64,000 bases of DNA, from the NCBI RefSeq assembly GCF_900199705.1, contig NZ_LT904908.1, positions 379,694-443,693 of the forward strand, read 5' to 3'. Made by a program: the position numbers and the translations under genes. Below are positions 3,189 through 28,251 of the stretch, piece after piece. Numbering within the stretch: the first letter of the stretch is position 1; each line of letters begins with the position of its first letter. The stretch is from Collinsella provencensis. Lineage in GTDB: Bacteria; Actinomycetota; Coriobacteriia; Coriobacteriales; Coriobacteriaceae. The notes beneath the pieces are model-generated. The model did no database searches, was not told the DNA's origin, and saw nothing but the letters and a program-made list of their open reading frames with translations.

Positions 3189-3222
3189 CAAGAGCCCTAT
3201 TCCGTGTCTTTAAGGAGTGTCC

Positions 3223-3660
3223 ATGAAAGCCCTGGTTATCAATGGTCCCAATCTCAATATGCTCGGAATTCGCGAGCCGAACATCTACGGTTCCGACAAC
3301 TACGAGGCGCTCGTCGAGATTTGCCAAACTGCCGCTGAAGAGGCAGGATTTACGGGCGTCGAAGTATTTCAATCAAACCATGAAGGAGCTCTTGTCGATC
3401 GCGTTCAAGAGGCGTACGGCACTATCGACGGCATCGTAATCAACCCCGCTGCATATACGCATACCAGCGTCGCGATCCTCGACGCCCTAAAAGCCGTCGC
3501 CATTCCCGCAGTTGAGGTTCACATTTCAGCTGTTGAAGAGCGCGAAGATTTTCGCCAAATCTCCTATGCCGGCATGGCATGTTTTGCCACTATCACCGGC
3601 GAAGGGCTGCAGGGATACGCCCACGCTCTACAGCTTCTTGCGGAAAAGCTTGGACTTTAA
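3223..3660 (+). CDS. aroQ: Type II 3-dehydroquinate dehydratase
   Basis: Dehydrates 3-dehydroquinate to 3-dehydroshikimate, the substrate of the fused enzyme encoded just upstream. The 145-residue length and the motifs NGPNLNMLGIREPNIYG (start), NPAAYTHTS and VEVHIS with the catalytic histidine are typical of the dodecameric type II family. An in-frame GTG at 3217 overlaps the AAGGAG ribosome-binding site (3212-3217), so the ATG at 3223 is preferred. It is the last gene of the plus-strand cluster; beyond it lie only repeats and the convergent pnp terminator. Confidence 0.94.
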   Translation: MKALVINGPNLNMLGIREPNIYGSDNYEALVEICQTAAEEAGFTGVEVFQSNHEGALVDRVQEAYGTIDGIVINPAAYTHTSVAILDALKAVAIPAVEVHISAVEEREDFRQISYAGMACFATITGEGLQGYAHALQLLAEKLGL

Positions 3661-3953: not shown

Positions 3954-4056
3954 CAGGCCATATATCATCCCATGCTCAAGCAGTCCTGCTCACGACGAAG
4001 GCGCCACCGGCGCCTTCTGTTCGTGCGGAACTGCGCGTGGGACTATATATGGCCTG
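3954..4056. repeat. Structured element B1 (103 nt)
   Basis: Outer stem CAGGCCATATAT (3954-3965) pairs with ATATATGGCCTG (4045-4056). A centred hairpin GAAGGCGCC / ACC / GGCGCCTTC lies at 3997-4017. The boxes CAGTCCTGCTC and TCGTGCGGAACT flank the hairpin and are shared with elements B2 (7934) and B3 (19956), while stem sequences differ in compensatory fashion. It lies between convergent genes and has no T-tract. Confidence 0.8.
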
Positions 4057-4186: not shown

Positions 4187-4220
4187 GAAAAGAGGTCCAC
4201 AGCAAATGCTGTGGACCTCT
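4187..4220 (-). terminator. Rho-independent terminator of pnp
   Basis: On the minus strand the 14-bp stem AGAGGTCCACAGCA / TGCTGTGGACCTCT is followed by a T-rich tract, 24 nt after the pnp stop. The stem is perfect. Confidence 0.9.
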
Positions 4221-4244
4221 TAATAAAAGCTTAGTGCGTTATCG

Positions 4245-6521
4245 CTACTCTGCCTCGTGATGACGACGCGGGGTGCGGCCGCCGCTGTCGCCGGGACGGC
4301 GCGGGCGATCTCCGCGCTCGCGACGCTCACGGTTGGGACGGTCGAAGCCGCGGGCACCGTTGTCGCGGCTGCTGCGGCGCTCACGACGCTCGCCACCCTC
4401 GGAGCGGCCAGAGCCGGAACCCTCAGGAGCCTCGGGCTTATCAAGGCGATCAAGCGAGATCTTGCCCTTGTCATCGATCTCGATGACCTTGACCTTGACC
4501 TCATCGCCCACGTTCAGCACGTCCTCAACGCGCTCAACGCGACCCTGGGCAACGCGGGAGATGTGCAGCAGGCCGTCCTTGCTGCCGAACAGGCGCACGA
4601 AGGCGCCGAAGGACTGGACGGTCACGACGCGACCGTCGTAGACCTCGCCGACCTCGGGCTCCTTCACGATAAGCTGGATGCGCTCGATGGCCTGGCCCAC
4701 CGAGTCGCCCACGCCGCCCACGTAAATGGTGCCGTCTTCCTGAATGTCGATGGAAGCGCCGGTCTCATCCTGGATACCGCGGATGGTCTCGCCGCCCTTG
4801 CCGATGACCTCGCGGATCTTATCGACGGCGATGGAGATCGTCGTGATGCGCGGGGCGGTCTCGCGAGTGTCCTCACGCGGGCCGGGGATAACCTCGAGCA
4901 TCTTGTCGAGAATGTAGGCACGACCCTCTTTTGCCTGCTCAAGAGCAGTGCGCAGGATGTCGAACGTCAGGCCGGTCGCCTTGTTGTCCATCTGGAGCGC
5001 CGTGATGCCGCGCTCGGTGCCGGTGACCTTGAAGTCCATGTCGCCGAGGAAGTCCTCGAGACCCTGGATGTCGGACAGCACGACCGTTTTGCCCTCCTCC
5101 TGGATGAGGCCCATGGCGATGCCGGAAACGGGGCGCTTGATGGGCACGCCGCCGTCCATGAGCGCCAGGCAGCTGCCGCAGGTGGAAGCCATGGACGAAG
5201 AGCCGTTGGACTCCATGACCTCGGAGACGACGCGAATGGCGTACGGGAACTCGTTCTCGTCGGGCAGCACGGGCAGCAAGGCGCGCTCGGCCAGGTTGCC
5301 GTGGCCGATCTCGCGGCGCTTCGGGGTGCCGATGCGCCCGGTCTCGCCGGTGCAGAAGGGCGGGAAGTTGTAGTGATGCATGTAACGCTTGCCCTCGACC
5401 GGCTCGATGGTATCGAGACGCTGGGCCTCGTTGAGCATGCCGAGCGACAGCACGGAAAGCACCTGGGTCTGACCGCGCTGGAACAGGCCGGAGCCATGCA
5501 CGAGCGGCAGGTAGTTGTCCTTGACCATGATGGGACGGATCTCGTTGGCGGCACGGCCGTCAACGCGCTCGCCGGTCTCGACGACCATGCGGCGCATGGC
5601 GGTCTTCTCGAGCTTCTTGAGGTTCACCGGAATCTCGCGCTCCCACTCGAGCTGCTCCTCCTCGGTGAACTCGGCCTTGATGGCCTCCTTGAGCTCTGCG
5701 ACCTTGTCCTGGCGGGCGAGCTTATCGGCGTCGCGCAGGGCGGCGGCCATCTCATCGTAGTGGGCGAAGATGCGGTCGTGGACCTCCTCGACCGGCTCGT
5801 CGAGCGGATACTCGCGCTTGACGATCGGGCCGTTGACCTGCTCCCACTCCTCGACAAAGGCGAGCTGGGCGTCGCAGAAGGCGCCGATGGCCTCCTGACC
5901 GAACTGCATGGCGTCGAGCATGTCCTCCTCGGACACCTCCTCGGCACCGGCCTCCACCATGGAGATGAAGTCGCGCGTGCCCGCGAGCTCGAGATCGAGG
6001 TCGGAGCCCTCGCGCTCCTCATAGGTGGGGTTCACGATGAACTCGCCGGTCTCCTTGTTGCGGGCGATGCGCACGCAAGCAAGCGGTCCCTCGAAGGGCA
6101 CGCCGCCGATGAGCATGGCAAGCGAGGCGCCCATGACGCAGATGACGTCGACGGGGTTCTTCTGGTCGGCAACAAGCGAGGTTGCAACAACCTGCACCTC
6201 GTTGCGGAAGCCGTCTGGGAACGACGGGCGGATGGGACGGTCGATCATGCGGGCGGTAAGCGTGGCCTTCTCGGAGGGACGGCCCTCACGCTTGAGGTAG
6301 CCGCCGGGAATGCGGCCCGCGGCGTACATTTTCTCCTGGAAGTCCACCGTGAGCGGGAAGAAGTCGTAGTTCTTGCGCTCCTTGGACACCACCACGGTGT
6401 TCAGCACGGTAGAATCGCCCTGCTTGACGAGGGCGGCGCCGGTTGCCTGCTTGGCGAGCTCGCCGGCTTCCAGCACGTAGGTCTTGCCGTACAGATCGAA
6501 GGTCTTGCTAACGAGTGTCAT
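4245..6521 (-). CDS. pnp: Polynucleotide phosphorylase
   Basis: Phosphorolytic 3'-5' exoribonuclease of the degradosome-like RNA decay machinery. It can also add 3' tails. The 758-residue product has two RNase PH domains (about 10-230 and 330-560) separated by an all-helical linker, a KH domain with the VIGKGGETIRGI motif (about 580) and an S1 domain with SFGAFVRLFG and GLLHIS (about 640-705). A basic, low-complexity Arg/Gly/Ser tail follows. It lies downstream of rpsO, the arrangement found in many bacteria, with a terminator-like hairpin between the two genes. Confidence 0.97.
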   Translation of the reverse strand: MTLVSKTFDLYGKTYVLEAGELAKQATGAALVKQGDSTVLNTVVVSKERKNYDFFPLTVDFQEKMYAAGRIPGGYLKREGRPSEKATLTARMIDRPIRPSFPDGFRNEVQVVATSLVADQKNPVDVICVMGASLAMLIGGVPFEGPLACVRIARNKETGEFIVNPTYEEREGSDLDLELAGTRDFISMVEAGAEEVSEEDMLDAMQFGQEAIGAFCDAQLAFVEEWEQVNGPIVKREYPLDEPVEEVHDRIFAHYDEMAAALRDADKLARQDKVAELKEAIKAEFTEEEQLEWEREIPVNLKKLEKTAMRRMVVETGERVDGRAANEIRPIMVKDNYLPLVHGSGLFQRGQTQVLSVLSLGMLNEAQRLDTIEPVEGKRYMHHYNFPPFCTGETGRIGTPKRREIGHGNLAERALLPVLPDENEFPYAIRVVSEVMESNGSSSMASTCGSCLALMDGGVPIKRPVSGIAMGLIQEEGKTVVLSDIQGLEDFLGDMDFKVTGTERGITALQMDNKATGLTFDILRTALEQAKEGRAYILDKMLEVIPGPREDTRETAPRITTISIAVDKIREVIGKGGETIRGIQDETGASIDIQEDGTIYVGGVGDSVGQAIERIQLIVKEPEVGEVYDGRVVTVQSFGAFVRLFGSKDGLLHISRVAQGRVERVEDVLNVGDEVKVKVIEIDDKGKISLDRLDKPEAPEGSGSGRSEGGERRERRSSRDNGARGFDRPNRERRERGDRPRRPGDSGGRTPRRHHEAE

Positions 6522-7158: not shown

Positions 7159-7905
7159 CTAGCATCCCAGCATGAACTCGAGCGCGCGGAGACGACAATC
7201 GAGATGCGTGGCAGCCCACAGGTGCGCCAGCGCCAGCAGATGCGATGCAGTGAAAGAGTCGATCTGCGCCGCCGCCAGCTCCGAAAACCGCAGCGCGATA
7301 AGAGCGGACAGCCATGAGAGCGTCACTGGATCGAGTTCCTCCGCACCCGCGATATTCGAAGCGCAACTCGCGCACAACACGCCACCGGCCTGCGCTGAGA
7401 AATACGTTGGTGCCTCATCACCACATGCGACGCAACCCGTGTAGTCAGGCCGATACCCCACATGCGAGAGCAGTTTAAAGATGTACGCTGCAACTAGAAG
7501 ATCGAGATGAGCGGAATCCACAGAGGCGATCCATTCGAGAACCGCACTGGTGATGGGGAAAACAAACGGATCGTCGGCGTCCTCGAACGTGCAACGGCTC
7601 GCAACCTCGGCCACAGCCGAACCCGCAGTGAGCAGCTCGTAGCTCGGGCTCGCACCCAGAGGAGCTGCGATCAGATCGGCTTGTGAAACGACATCAAGAT
7701 TGCGGCCATGAGCCAACAACAAATCGACCTCGCAACACAGCTCGCACCGCGCCGCCAAACGGCCCCCCGGTTTGCGCGCGCCCTTCGCAACCGCGCGAAT
7801 CTGCCGTCCGCTCTCGGCAACCAACGTGAGGATGAGGTCGGTTTCCTTGAGCTTCGTCTTATCGAGGACGATCGCCTTCGTGCGATATGTGCGACTACCA
7901 GCCAT
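7159..7905 (-). CDS. recO: DNA repair protein RecO
   Basis: Recombination mediator that helps load RecA on gapped DNA with RecF/RecR. It has an N-terminal OB-fold (start TYRTKAIVLDKTKLKETD), a helical C-terminal domain and a complete C4 zinc finger at Cys158, Cys161, Cys178 and Cys181. The chosen ATG (MAGSR) has GGAG upstream. In-frame codons further up would place repeat element B2 inside the protein and give an N-terminus unlike the family. It follows era on the same strand, separated only by B2, as in the common era-recO order. Confidence 0.92.
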   Translation of the reverse strand: MAGSRTYRTKAIVLDKTKLKETDLILTLVAESGRQIRAVAKGARKPGGRLAARCELCCEVDLLLAHGRNLDVVSQADLIAAPLGASPSYELLTAGSAVAEVASRCTFEDADDPFVFPITSAVLEWIASVDSAHLDLLVAAYIFKLLSHVGYRPDYTGCVACGDEAPTYFSAQAGGVLCASCASNIAGAEELDPVTLSWLSALIALRFSELAAAQIDSFTASHLLALAHLWAATHLDCRLRALEFMLGC

Positions 7906-7933: not shown

Positions 7934-8038
7934 AGTCCAACATATATCATCGCCTGCTCGGGCAGTCCTGCTCGCACGAAGAGCCCACTGGGCTCTTCGG
8001 CTCGTGCGGAACTCGCATTCGACGATATATGTTGGACT
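7934..8038. repeat. Structured element B2 (105 nt) between era and recO
   Basis: Outer stem AGTCCAACATATATC (7934-7948) pairs perfectly with GATATATGTTGGACT (8024-8038). The central hairpin GAAGAGCCC / ACT / GGGCTCTTC (7978-7998) sits at the midpoint. The conserved boxes CAGTCCTGCTC and TCGTGCGGAACTC are the same as in B1. It fills the gap between two same-strand genes and ends about 30 nt before the recO start. Confidence 0.82.
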
Positions 8039-8053
8039 TAGCTGCATCGTCAT

Positions 8054-9085
8054 TTACTCGTCGTCGGGTGCCGCATAGCCAAAACGACGAATCTCGCGCG
8101 CGTCCTCGCGCCAGCGCGGCTTCACGCGCACATCAAGGCTCAAGAACACGCGGCAACCGAACATCTTCTCAAGGTCACGACGCGCTTCGACACCGATGCG
8201 CTTGATCATCTCGCCGCCCTTACCCACGATGATGCCCTTTTGGCCTTCACGTTCCACATACACAGTTGCATGCAAGCGCAGCAAATCGCGTTTGGGACGC
8301 TCGAACTCATCGCAGATGACACCAACTGCGTGCGGAATCTCCTCGCGCGTGTGCAGCAGCACCTTCTCACGCACGAACTCCGCGACCATGACCTCTTCGG
8401 TCTCATCGGTATCCATACCCTCAGGATACCAACGCGGGCCCTCGGGCAGATACTCCGCAACCACATCGACAAAGGTCTCGACGTTGAAGCCCTCGGTGGC
8501 AGACACCACGAGCTCATCGTCGAAATCGACCAACTCATGCGCAGCGGCGAGCTGGGCCTGCATCTGCTCGGGCGTCGCCTTGTCCGCCTTCGTGAGCACC
8601 AGGATTTTTGGAGCTCGAGCTGCGGCAACACGCTCGGCAACCCACGCGTCGCCACGGCCGATCGGCGCGCTCGCATCAATTACGAACGCAATCACGTCAA
8701 CATCGGAGAGCTCACCCAACGCACTCTTATTCAACTCTGAGCCCAAACCGTCCTTGGGCTTATGGATACCCGGCGTATCCACGATCACAAGTTGGCAGTT
8801 TTCACGGTTCACCACAGCACGCAAACGGCGACGCGTAGTCTGCGCCACGGGCGAGGTAATGGCGATCTTCTGGCCAAAACAGGCATTGAGCAGCGTCGAT
8901 TTACCGGCGTTGGGACGCCCGACAAGTGCGACGAAACCCGAACGAAAGCCCTCGGGAACATCCGTACCAAACGAGAGGCCAGCGGAAAGACTCTCGTCTT
9001 CACCCAGCTCACCCGACTCGATCATGGCATCGAGCTCCTCGTCGGAAAGGTCGGCGAACGGATCGAAATCTACCATGTCGGACAT
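8054..9085 (-). CDS. era: GTPase Era
   Basis: Ribosome-assembly GTPase that binds the 3' end of 16S rRNA. The G domain shows G1 GRPNAGKS (56-63), DTPG and TKAD, and a C-terminal KH domain contains GIIVGKGGEMIKRIG. Compared with typical Era proteins of about 300 residues this one has roughly 48 extra N-terminal residues, highly acidic (DFDPFADLSDEELDAMIE). Two in-frame methionines (residues 1 and 4) are possible starts; the first is used here. ybeY, dgkA, era and recO follow each other as in many bacteria. Confidence 0.95.
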   Translation of the reverse strand: MSDMVDFDPFADLSDEELDAMIESGELGEDESLSAGLSFGTDVPEGFRSGFVALVGRPNAGKSTLLNACFGQKIAITSPVAQTTRRRLRAVVNRENCQLVIVDTPGIHKPKDGLGSELNKSALGELSDVDVIAFVIDASAPIGRGDAWVAERVAAARAPKILVLTKADKATPEQMQAQLAAAHELVDFDDELVVSATEGFNVETFVDVVAEYLPEGPRWYPEGMDTDETEEVMVAEFVREKVLLHTREEIPHAVGVICDEFERPKRDLLRLHATVYVEREGQKGIIVGKGGEMIKRIGVEARRDLEKMFGCRVFLSLDVRVKPRWREDAREIRRFGYAAPDDE

Positions 9086-18091: not shown

Positions 18092-19909
18092 TCAGTCCTC
18101 GACTTTGAGGATGGCGAGGAACGCCTCCTGCGGCACCTCGACAGAGCCGATGGCCTTCATGCGCTTCTTGCCCTCTTTTTGCTTCTCAAGTAGCTTGCGT
18201 TTACGCGAAATGTCGCCGCCGTAGCACTTGGCTAGCACGTCCTTGCGATGCGCCTTCACCGTGGAACGCGCGATGATCTTGTTGCCGATGGCACCCTGAA
18301 TGGGAACCTCGAATTGCTGACGAGGGATGATCTCCTTGAGCTTGTCACACAGACTGCGCGCAAGCGCATATGCCTTGTCCTTGTGCACGATGAACGAAAG
18401 CGCATCCACCTCATCGCCCGAAAGCAGGATGTCGAGTTTGACAAGTTCGCTCACGCGATAGTCCGAGAATTCATAATCGAGTGACGCGTACCCCTTGGTA
18501 CGGCTCTTGAGCTGGTCGAAGAAATCAAGAATGAGCTCGGCGAGCGGCACGTCGAAATGCATTTCGACGGACTTCTGCGAAAGGTGAATCATGTCAGTCG
18601 TGATGCCGCGATGCTCGATGGCAAGCTGCATGACAGCGCCGGTATACTCGGGCGGAGCGATGACCTTTGCCTTGAGATACGGCTCCTCGATGTGCTCGAT
18701 ACGCGTGACATCGGGCAGGTCCTGCGGACTGCGGACGTCGATCATCTCGCCGTCCGTTTTGTACACGTGATAGTCAACGCTGGGACTCGTGGCAATGAGG
18801 TCGAGGTCAAACTCGCGCTCAAGGCGCTCCTTCACGACCTCCATGTGCAGCAAACCGAGGAAGCCAACACGGAAACCAAAGCCAAGTGCCACCGACGTCT
18901 CGGGCGTCCAGATAAGCGACGGGTCGTTGACGCGCAGTTTTTCAAGCGCGTCGCGCAGGTTCTCGTAATCCTTGTTATCGATCGGGAATAGGCCGGTATA
19001 CACCATCGGCTTGGCCTCACGGTAACCGGACAGCGGAGCATCGCAAGGATTGTCGCGGAACGTGAGCGTGTCACCCACATGCACCGCCTCAGGGTCCTTG
19101 AGACCCGTGACAACGTAGCCGACCTCTCCCACCGCAAGCACATCCACGGCAACCTCGGCGGGACGACGCACGCCGACGCCATCGACAAGGAAGTCCTCGC
19201 CGCCCTGCATCATGCGCAGCTGGTCGCCCTTCTTCACCGAGCCGTCGAACACGCGAACCGTAGCGACGACGCCGCGATACTCGTCAAAATAGGAATCGAG
19301 AATCAACGCCTTAAGCGGCTTGCTCGCATCGCCCTTCGGCGGAGAGATGAGGAACACAATCGACTCGAGCAGGTCATGGATGCCCTCACCCGTCTTGCCG
19401 GACACGCACACGGCGTCGTCGGCCGGGATGGCGAGCTCGTCCTCAATCTCGACTTTGACCTCTTCGGGATGGGCGGAAGGCAGGTCGATTTTGTTGATCG
19501 CGGGTACGATATCAAGATTAGCGTTCATGGCGAGATTCGCGTTGGAGACCGTCTGCGCCTCAACGCCCTGGGTAGCGTCAACCACGAGCACGGCGCCCTC
19601 GCATGCCGCCAGACTGCGGCTGACCTCGTAGGTAAAGTCGACATGGCCCGGCGTGTCAATGAGGTTGAACTGATAGGTCTCGCCATCGTCGGCGTCGTAC
19701 ATCACGCGCACAGCGTTGCTTTTGATGGTGATGCCGCGCTCGCGCTCGATATCCATGGTGTCGAGCAACTGCGACTCCATGTCGCGCTCCTCCACTGTTC
19801 TCGTGAGCTCGAGAATGCGGTCGGAGATGGTCGACTTGCCATGGTCGATATGAGCGACGATGGAGAAGTTCCTGATATGTGAAGTGTCAATCGTATCCAT
19901 GCGGGTCAT
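18092..19909 (-). CDS. lepA: Elongation factor 4 (LepA)
   Basis: Ribosome-bound GTPase that acts in back-translocation and 30S biogenesis. The G domain carries [17 protein letters not shown] and NKIDL, followed by EF-G-like domains and the LepA-specific C-terminal domain ([20 protein letters not shown]). The start is placed at ATG 19909 ([18 protein letters not shown]), with a weak TAGGT site; MDTIDTS nine bases later is an alternative. Repeat element B3 separates it from recN upstream. Confidence 0.95.
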
Positions 19910-19955
19910 TGTACCTAAATTCTCGAAATAGGGTGCTCGCAAAGGTCTCTCTCGT

Positions 19956-20059
19956 CAGATGCCAACAAGACTCCGCGCTCGGTCAGTCCTGCGCAAGACG
20001 GAGCGTCCACTGGACGCTCCTTTGCGTGCGAAATCTACGCTGAGCCTTGTTGGTATCTG
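19956..20059. repeat. Structured element B3 (104 nt) between recN and lepA
   Basis: Outer stem CAGATGCCAACAAG (19956-19969) pairs with CTTGTTGGTATCTG (20046-20059), with one G-T pair. The central hairpin GGAGCGTCC / ACT / GGACGCTCC (20000-20020) lies at the midpoint, with a CGCAA / TTGCG inner stem around it. It shares the CAGTCCTGC box and loop context CCACTGG with B1 and B2, while all stems differ in sequence. Confidence 0.8.
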
Positions 20060-20096
20060 CCAAAACACCGTTAAGCACATTTCTCAACCAAAAGAC

Positions 20097-21728
20097 TTAT
20101 AACCGTCCGGCTTCTAACAACATCTGCCTTGCATGCGCCAGGCTCTCCTCGCTCGCATCACCGGAAAGCAAGCGGGCAATCTCGTTGACGCGATCTTCGC
20201 CCTCGACGAGCAGCAAGCTGGTCTCGGGCACATCGTCATCGGAACGGCGAACCACGTAGTGCGTCTCGCCCTGAACGGCAACCTGCGCCAAATGGGTCAC
20301 CACGATGACCTGGTGCGTACGCGCCAAGTCGGCGAGCACCGCAGCGAGCGAACGCGCCGTGGTTCCGCCCACACCGGCATCGACCTCGTCAAACACCAGC
20401 GTATCGGTTTGGTCGGACTCTCCCAGCGTCACCTTGCAGGCAAGCATGACACGTGAGAGCTCACCGCCGCTGGCGATGCGTTTGAGTGGACGCGGAGTAA
20501 GGCCCGAGCCGCTGCGATACAGCAGCTCGCAGGCACACGGCCCCTGCATCGTCCAGCGATCGCGCGGAAGGTCGCGGCTTTCCCACACAAGCTCGGCACG
20601 ACCCATCTCAAGACGGGCCATCTGCTTGCCGACCTCGCGGCAAAAACGCGGGGCAACGGCGTTGCGACGACGCATGAGCGTACGGGCGGCATCAGCGAGC
20701 ACAGCCTCGGCTTCATCGTGAGCGGCACGCGCCTTGGCAACATGTGCCTCGGCATCATTCACCAAACTCAACAGATCTTGGGCCTCCGCGCGACGTGCGA
20801 ACACGTCTTCCATGTGCGGACCCCACTGACGCAACAGTCCCTTGAACGCACTGAAGCGCTCTTGGGCAGCCGCGAGCTCGGCGGGGTCGAAATCAACCTC
20901 ATCGCGATAGCGAACCAAGTCGGCAGCAGTATCTTCGATGGAAATCGCGGCACCCGTCAGAACATCGGCAAACTCGGCGAGCTTGGCGTCTACACGTCCC
21001 ATGCGCGCGAGCTCGGCAATGGCGCTGTTAAGGGCGTCGAGCGTCCCATTCTCGCCCGAGAGCGATTCGGCGGCGTCGTTCGCGCAGGTTGCCAGCGACT
21101 CGGCATGCTCGGCTCGTGGCAGGCGCTCCGCAAGCTCCTCGTACTCGCCCGGTTGGGGGTCGACCTCATCGATGCGCTCGAGCGCAAAACGGGCTTCCTC
21201 AAGGCGGCTCCCCTGCGTGCGGCTCGCCTCCTCAACACGCGCGAGCTCGGCTTCCGCCTCGCGCGCATGGACGAGCGCCTCGCGATAGGCAGCCAACGCG
21301 TCGGCCACGTTCACTCCCGCCCATGCATCGACCATATCGATGTGCGAAGACGCATCCAGCAGGCGCTGATGCTCGTGCTGTCCGCACAAATCGATGAGCG
21401 GGCTCACGCGCTCGGAAAGCTCGCGCACGCTGGCGATGCCACCGTCAATCTTGATGCGCGAGCGCCCATCCGCGCCCAAACGACGGGTCACGACGAACCC
21501 ATCCTCATCATGCGCGCCCGCGAACAAACGACCGGAAACCAGCGCGCCGTCGCTCCCCTCGCGCACCGTGGAGGAATCCGCACGGGAGCCCATGAGCAGT
21601 TTAAGCGCGGAAAGCAACGCGGTTTTGCCCGCACCCGTCTCGCCCGTGAGCACCGTCAGACCCGCACAGGGGACCAAATCGGCCTCGCGGATGAGCGCGA
21701 TGTTCTCGACATGCAGTTCATCGATCAT
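20097..21728 (-). CDS. recN: DNA repair protein RecN
   Basis: SMC-like ATPase that holds broken DNA ends together during double-strand-break repair. Walker A GETGAGKT lies at about 29-36. The coiled-coil arms follow, then the C-terminal ASGGELSR signature and VFDEVDAG Walker B. Its 543 residues are full length. The first 11 nt overlap the 3' end of nadK, and it ends a compact run nusB-xseB-tlyA-nadK-recN, an order common in Gram-positive bacteria. Confidence 0.95.
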   Translation of the reverse strand: MIDELHVENIALIREADLVPCAGLTVLTGETGAGKTALLSALKLLMGSRADSSTVREGSDGALVSGRLFAGAHDEDGFVVTRRLGADGRSRIKIDGGIASVRELSERVSPLIDLCGQHEHQRLLDASSHIDMVDAWAGVNVADALAAYREALVHAREAEAELARVEEASRTQGSRLEEARFALERIDEVDPQPGEYEELAERLPRAEHAESLATCANDAAESLSGENGTLDALNSAIAELARMGRVDAKLAEFADVLTGAAISIEDTAADLVRYRDEVDFDPAELAAAQERFSAFKGLLRQWGPHMEDVFARRAEAQDLLSLVNDAEAHVAKARAAHDEAEAVLADAARTLMRRRNAVAPRFCREVGKQMARLEMGRAELVWESRDLPRDRWTMQGPCACELLYRSGSGLTPRPLKRIASGGELSRVMLACKVTLGESDQTDTLVFDEVDAGVGGTTARSLAAVLADLARTHQVIVVTHLAQVAVQGETHYVVRRSDDDVPETSLLLVEGEDRVNEIARLLSGDASEESLAHARQMLLEAGRL

Positions 21729-27997: not shown

Positions 27998-28039
27998 ACA
28001 CTGGCTTTTGCATGCTTGGCGCCCATTCGAAAAGCATTG

Positions 28040-28203
28040 AATGCACAATGGGGTAGGGTTTTCGCACAGTTTTGGCTAACCGCCGAGTAGATCGCCGTTT
28101 TAAGAAAAAGAGCATCACTTCTACCTGCGGTTTCTTTTCGCTGATTTACTCTCTACTTGGAGAAATTCCAAAGTTGTGCGAAAACCCTATCCCGTTGTGC
28201 ATT
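28040..28203 (+). repeat. Inverted-repeat element A3 with 36-bp stem
   Basis: Arms 28040-28075 and 28168-28203 pair over 36 bp. The four non-identical positions (10, 14, 30 and 31 of the arm) are all transitions that give G-U pairs in plus-strand RNA and A-C mismatches in the other strand. The 92-nt interior holds TACCTGCGGTTTCTT (28122-28136), identical to the minus-strand core of A2. It is downstream of the small plus-strand membrane gene and ends at the T-tract of the pepP terminator. No protein is encoded in 27998-28202. Confidence 0.82.
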
Positions 28204-28251
28204 AAAAGCCCCATCTCTTGGATTTGCGACTTTGCATCCAAGAGATGGGGG
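28203..28251 (-). terminator. Rho-independent terminator of the M24 peptidase gene
   Basis: Minus strand: CCCCATCTCTTGGAT pairs perfectly with ATCCAAGAGATGGGG, followed by CTTTTAAT. Its T-tail touches the outer edge of element A3. About 80 nt separate it from the stop codon. Confidence 0.9.

Follow-up and report, generated by a model that had tools for sequence, protein, structure and literature searches.

Three hairpins in the window

The window (the whole 64,000-nucleotide stretch of Collinsella provencensis DNA analysed here) contains three look-alike copies of a hairpin, B1, B2, and B3, at the sites named in a preliminary description. B1 (3954–4056, + strand) lies between an aroQ-like gene (3217–3660, +) and a pnp-like gene (4245–6521, −). 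B2 (7934–8041, +) lies between a recO-like gene (− strand, start near 7904) and an era-like gene (8054–9085, −). B3 (19955–20063, +), the most diverged of the window's copies, lies between a lepA-like gene (18092–19942, −) and a recN-like gene (20097–21728, −). The neighbours of B1 were identified from conserved protein starts and from the way this region is annotated in C. aerofaciens; that annotation also gives the gene order around B2.

B1 is composed of a left arm (3954–3978, +), which is an inverted repeat 84% complementary to 4032–4056, a core CAGTCCTGC...GTGCGGAACT (3981–4032, +; sequence and alignment) and a right arm (4033–4056, +; inverted-repeat search). A central 9-bp hairpin with loop ACC (3997–4017, +) is seen in the sequence and in RNA folding. 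The cores of B2 (CAGTCCTGC...GTGCGGAACT, 7963–8013, +) and B3 (CAGTCCTGC...GTGCGAAATCT, 19984–20036, +) were located by sequence, and their central 9-bp hairpins, both with loop ACT (7978–7998, + and 20000–20020, +), by sequence and RNA folding. The left box CAGTCCTGC starts at 3981, 7963, and 19984, and the right box is GTGCGGAACT at 4023–4032 in B1 and 8004–8013 in B2, and GTGCGAAATCT at 20026–20036 in B3, so the boxes, the 9-bp inner hairpins and their loops are as first described. The outer stems exist as well, but they are usually longer than the 12–15 bp first given, with a median of ~23 Watson-Crick pairs per arm among 102 non-redundant copies. The stem sequence differs between copies as described, but not wholly in every copy, because B1 and B2 have the inner-arm part CATATATCATC in common. 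RNA folding of B1, B2, and B3 gives z scores of −7.6, −6.6, and −7.7, respectively, and 0 of 200 shuffles are equally stable.

Other inverted repeats are present in the window. A perfect 15-bp inverted repeat just 3' of the stop codon of the pnp-like gene (4190–4221) is probably an ordinary terminator of that gene. Further long imperfect inverted repeats (28034–28209 and 680–767) are unrelated to the hairpin family and presumably belong to another family in the preliminary description.

Anatomy of the hairpin

Each copy is a single long hairpin, ~105–150 nt in length, in which an asymmetric conserved core lies inside perfect or near-perfect private arms of ~20–40 bp. The core is composed of CAGTCCTGC, the 9-bp hairpin, and GTGCGGAACT. 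Inward from the outside, the arms are followed by a small internal loop, CGC/GCG, and the two boxes, (C)AGTCCTGC and GTGCGGAACT, which are paired with one another. Next come a mid stem, which occurs in three covarying versions (GCTCGCACG/GGCTCGTGC, GCGCAAGACG/TTTGCGTGC, and GCTCACGACG/TGTTCGTGC), and the 9-bp hairpin, whose loop is ACT or a similar sequence. Of 193 stretches matched by pattern, all but two have a core of 51–54 nt; one of the exceptions is from Streptomyces and probably matches by chance. Over the family, the conserved core is put at ~55–75 nt, and the folded strand or cruciform is one 35–45-bp hairpin. The arms are ~75% G+C and have a three-base A/T notch 16–18 nt from the core.

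The core hardly differs between Collinsella and the genera Gordonibacter and Adlercreutzia; its loop follows lineage, being ATTAA in the C. aerofaciens group and ACT elsewhere. A T.G pair in the core is conserved in 54 of 54 sequences, and this pair fits RNA as well as DNA.

Size and distribution of the family

A search of Coriobacteriia found many further copies in related genomes, in agreement with the proposal of a real family with more copies. The genome of the window (G000, 1.74 Mb) has 21 matches to B1 by blast and 23 sense-strand copies by a covariance model built from 21 of its own copies, additional rows being the same palindromes read on the opposite strand. C. aerofaciens-like genomes have 29–33 matches each at E<=1e-7, and most sampled Collinsella genomes have copies. 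A broader model was used for a census of the class: 142 of the 298 genomes have matches, as do 50 of the 125 genera sampled, and the strong matches are concentrated in one order, Coriobacteriales. At most 12 candidates per genome were scored in this census, so the per-genome counts are lower bounds. Named hosts among the matches listed are Collinsella, Enorma, Slackia, Adlercreutzia, Gordonibacter, Ellagibacter, and Paraeggerthella; box conservation at these loci is partly by choice, because the boxes served as the scan pattern. Most sites are common to three complete genomes.

Three draft contigs (G044:C37, G053:C34, and G042:C25) end at or inside the element. Assemblies thus break at it, and therefore the copies counted in draft genomes are probably too few. 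A typical copy (L199) is found in a metagenome-assembled genome labelled Corynebacterium sp.; its contig probably comes from Coriobacteriales and was mislabelled or misbinned.

The copies are unevenly placed in the genome of the window: a 755-kb arc (G000:C3:666387–1421772) has only 1 of the 23 copies (p about 0.0016 against uniform placement). The sampled GC skew flips sign at about 1310 and 320 kb, and the copy-poor arc may therefore surround the origin. Read by eye along the G040 genome, with no statistic, the strands of the copies look mixed with respect to replication.

IMG/VR viral contigs gave no match to the box pattern, and the phage records searched have no copy. In the plasmid search, the only record with copies was NZ_OY725717.1 (G007:C6; 899693 bases), named plasmid 6 of C. 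aerofaciens. This record carries rpsO, era, recO, pnp, and murB, and is probably a piece of chromosome closed as a circle. A viral, phage, or plasmid origin of the family was rejected, since no copies were found beyond this chromosome-like record.

Placement relative to genes

Placement was analysed for the 102 non-redundant copies, with gene calls from a simple codon model that was checked in part against the annotation of a C. aerofaciens record. In 44 cases an ORF boundary lies <=30 nt from the CAGTCC-side arm, and in 6 from the other arm (p=3e-8). The boundary is mostly a stop codon: where the upstream gene is in sense, 34 of 56 copies start <=30 nt from its stop, and the annotated stop codons of C. 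aerofaciens likewise lie near sense copies. Sometimes an antisense gene starts there instead, for example a cysS- or thrS-like gene, and some copies lie directly 5' of a Shine-Dalgarno sequence. Divergent gaps are avoided (p=0.006) and convergent gaps are enriched. In gaps between co-directional genes, the two orientations are roughly equally frequent, with 30 sense and 35 antisense copies. The flanking genes are ordinary housekeeping genes. A gene-specific regulator, for which neighbours should be conserved between families, was rejected, as only a handful of neighbour matches were found.

Placement after genes and enrichment between convergent genes are also expected of ordinary intrinsic terminators with shared sequence by chance, and where a relative lacks the copy, the same gap holds an ordinary terminator. 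However, >=4 T in the 7 nt past the hairpin occur in just 5 of the 56 copies, the murB site has a separate terminator beside the copy, and some copies directly precede a Shine-Dalgarno sequence. This explanation is most improbable.

Sense copies close to stop codons would also suit a role as RNA. The hairpin would then be a structured RNA in untranslated regions, made as part of the upstream gene's transcript and folding just past the stop codon to stabilise or attenuate the mRNA, with antisense copies in 5' leaders. The proximity to both predicted and annotated stop codons and the strong folding energy agree with this reading, as does the report that REPs <=15 nt from a stop codon stall ribosomes (PMC12306157). 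The near equality of sense and antisense copies between co-directional genes argues against it, as do the arm changes described below.

Private arms and their alleles

We distinguished 126 arm alleles across 81 site groups, with almost no sharing between sites. Transposition of whole units, by which arms would be shared between sites, was therefore rejected. Several matched arm alleles occur at a single site, the murB site. Arms of differing alleles at one site differ by 0.4–0.55 in many pairs; for the same allele pairs, the 4-fold sites of the flanking genes differ by 0.05–0.25 and the core often by 0–0.02. Within one allele, the arms differ by 0–0.06, except in the L084–L089 group, where they differ by up to 0.12.

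At one site in one genome, G040, the core is inverted relative to the flanks, and the arms nearly equal those of relatives with the other orientation. A phase-variable inverton is expected to invert frequently, whereas the core is flipped only here among the genomes compared, against 601 same-orientation site pairs. Recombinants with mismatched arms, resembling crossovers within the core, occur and persist in the family (L173, L205, L154, L230, L360, and the first copy of L347).

The L345 and L351 sites are gapped. Nearly all of their relatives are filled, and the gaps are therefore read as later deletions, probably via CCCGCCGG and CGG repeats. Among the sites compared, we found only such probable deletions and no ancestral empty site; no target-site duplication was seen among them. 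Two unrelated sites in C. aerofaciens-like genomes (L346 and L351) have a second, terminator-like repeat, roughly CCAAAWARGGACAGNTTTATTTTGGTCGGTTTTATCTGG, 3' of the copy or gapped site.

Privacy of the arms would be explained if they were inverted duplications of the insertion site, the core hairpin priming snap-back copying of its flanks so that each new copy builds arms of its own. The gapped L351 site (in G049) has one outer arm as a single copy where the filled relatives have both, as this explanation predicts. However, both gapped sites are better read as later deletions via short direct repeats, and a clearly ancestral empty site was not found. We consider insertion-site duplication very unlikely.

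Covariation, probably at the DNA level

The covariation is overwhelming: 21 of the 23 copies in the genome of the window give a score of 0.50, compared with 0.175 for shuffled and 0.03–0.12 for slid alignments. In these copies, 93.8% of the cells pair (75.9% in shuffles), 158 cells are changed on both sides (55 in shuffles), and 26 of the 40 pairs have double changes. Conserved pairing with covariation, as in a structured RNA family, is thus present.

The tolerance of G.U above A.C that marks RNA is absent from the arms on either strand. Among the 102 non-redundant copies, arm mismatches are G.T in 63 cases and A.C in 82, and among one-sided arm changes between similar alleles at the same site, 37 give G.T and 34 give A.C. 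Between the same kind of alleles, two-sided changes from one Watson-Crick pair to another number 60, compared with 0–2 in six shifted registers, and 24 of the 60 (40%) are transversions. Transversion double changes pass through no G.U intermediate, and the structured RNA that had been suggested is therefore unsupported. Given the absence of a G.U preference on both strands, the 40% of transversions, and the persistence of recombinants with mismatched arms, an RNA of untranslated regions is rather unlikely.

The view that selection acts on structure is upheld in part only: the covariation is real, but it is no proof of structural selection, because copying between arms in DNA yields the same signal. 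Of the proposed cruciform target of a mobilising protein, the DNA-level hairpin is the better half; the mobilising protein finds no support, as the genome of the window is without a Y1 (REP-type) transposase.

Comparison with known elements

ERIC/RUP/NEMIS-type MITEs are palindromic, intergenic, multicopy elements of ~100–130 nt. The Collinsella hairpins are alike in size, palindromic form, and intergenic, multicopy habit, but their ends carry no conserved repeats, and a TA duplication was not seen. Integron attC sites also differ, in that their conserved boxes sit at the hairpin's foot once the strand is folded, whereas the foot of the Collinsella hairpins is not conserved. The T-rich tract of intrinsic terminators is likewise rare here.

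Neither the window nor 18 copy-bearing loci match Rfam at gathering or permissive thresholds. The Collinsella-1 motif (RF01700), which the preliminary description could not tell from these hairpins, was also described from human-gut Actinobacteria (PMC2864571). It is a different, 196-position family, and its covariance model has no match in the whole genome of the window or in the 18 loci.

REPs and BIMEs associated with RAYT are likewise dispersed extragenic palindromes 3' of genes (PMC3733652, PMC2817692, PMC12306157). Like the hairpins, they lie between unidirectional and convergent ORFs, avoid divergent gaps, and often form opposite-orientation pairs. However, REPs are 20–40 nt long, are conserved at the foot rather than the centre, and number hundreds per genome, compared with ~20–30 Collinsella hairpins. 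The GTAG/CGTC foot tag of REPs is absent from the hairpins, whose outer ends differ per site and whose private arms are a feature of their own. An excess of G.T is reported for many REPs (PMC3733652), whereas the hairpin arms have none. The Y1 (RAYT/TnpA_REP) transposase profile PF01797 has no match in three copy-bearing genomes (G000, G005, and G036), and the REP/RAYT transposase was rejected as the mover on account of its absence from the genome of the window. The best reading files the hairpins among extragenic palindromic repeats, with REPs nearest in habit, although foot tag, size, and Y1 transposase all differ.

A non-autonomous selfish element of MITE or REP type, its transposase lost or elusive, would need its structure for transposition only, and the copies would be relics. 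In line with this, the copies are dispersed and numerous, cores are alike within a lineage (loop ATTAA or ACT), neighbour genes are not conserved between families, and some copies are paired in inverted orientation or truncated to halves. However, besides the differences from MITEs and REPs given above, the arms do not move with the core, the sites are mostly common to several species, the searched viral contigs and phages have no copies, and the core is conserved across families, which is not expected of a relic. A selfish element is therefore unlikely.

Proposed template switching and origin of the arms

Polymerase template switching between inverted repeats leads to arm homogenisation and spacer inversion (PMC8604942). 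Template-switched quasipalindromes (PMC8604942, PMC7202029) resemble the hairpins in their homogenised arms, inverted spacer, and multi-base compensated changes, but they arise by a mutation process at incidental repeats, whereas the hairpins are a dispersed family with a conserved core.

We propose, at a probability of roughly 0.55, that the hairpins are dispersed extragenic DNA palindromes of Coriobacteriales, REP-like in habit, made of a core and locus-private inverted-repeat arms and acting as DNA. The family apparently has not been described before; in the literature searched, we found no paper on intergenic inverted repeats of Coriobacteriia. Template switching is proposed because homogenised arms and an inverted core are its outcomes (PMC8604942). 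Switching between the arms during replication would mainly keep them complementary and would also flip the core, while a conserved host factor recognising the folded DNA may hold the core sequence. Template switching alone leaves the sudden switch of arm alleles unexplained; the simplest addition would be that the very different alleles are old and have been exchanged by recombination. The family would have spread in the past by some route and would now be mostly inherited in place. At gene ends the hairpin may serve as a boundary, by protecting mRNA 3' ends, pausing ribosomes or polymerase, or relieving supercoiling between convergent genes, roles also proposed for REPs.

Covariation is usually taken as proof of structured RNA; here it most likely reflects arm-to-arm copying of DNA, and dispersed palindromes are thus a concrete warning for covariation-based RNA discovery. 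For gut Collinsella and Eggerthellaceae, the hairpins provide a marker family with tens of natural replicates per genome, and a test bed for what REP-like elements do at stop codons, as well as for template switching and recombination of hairpins.

A self-templating element, whose core spread through the order and which builds and renews its private arms at each site by inverted copying of neighbouring DNA, appears decidedly unlikely. If true, it would be a kind of dispersed DNA that makes its ends at the target instead of bringing them with it.

In the genome of the window, lone left halves (GCTCNNNCAGTCC with an arm) adjoin full copies at three places (G000:C3:6169, 106380, and 1614451), which suggests truncated or nested copies.
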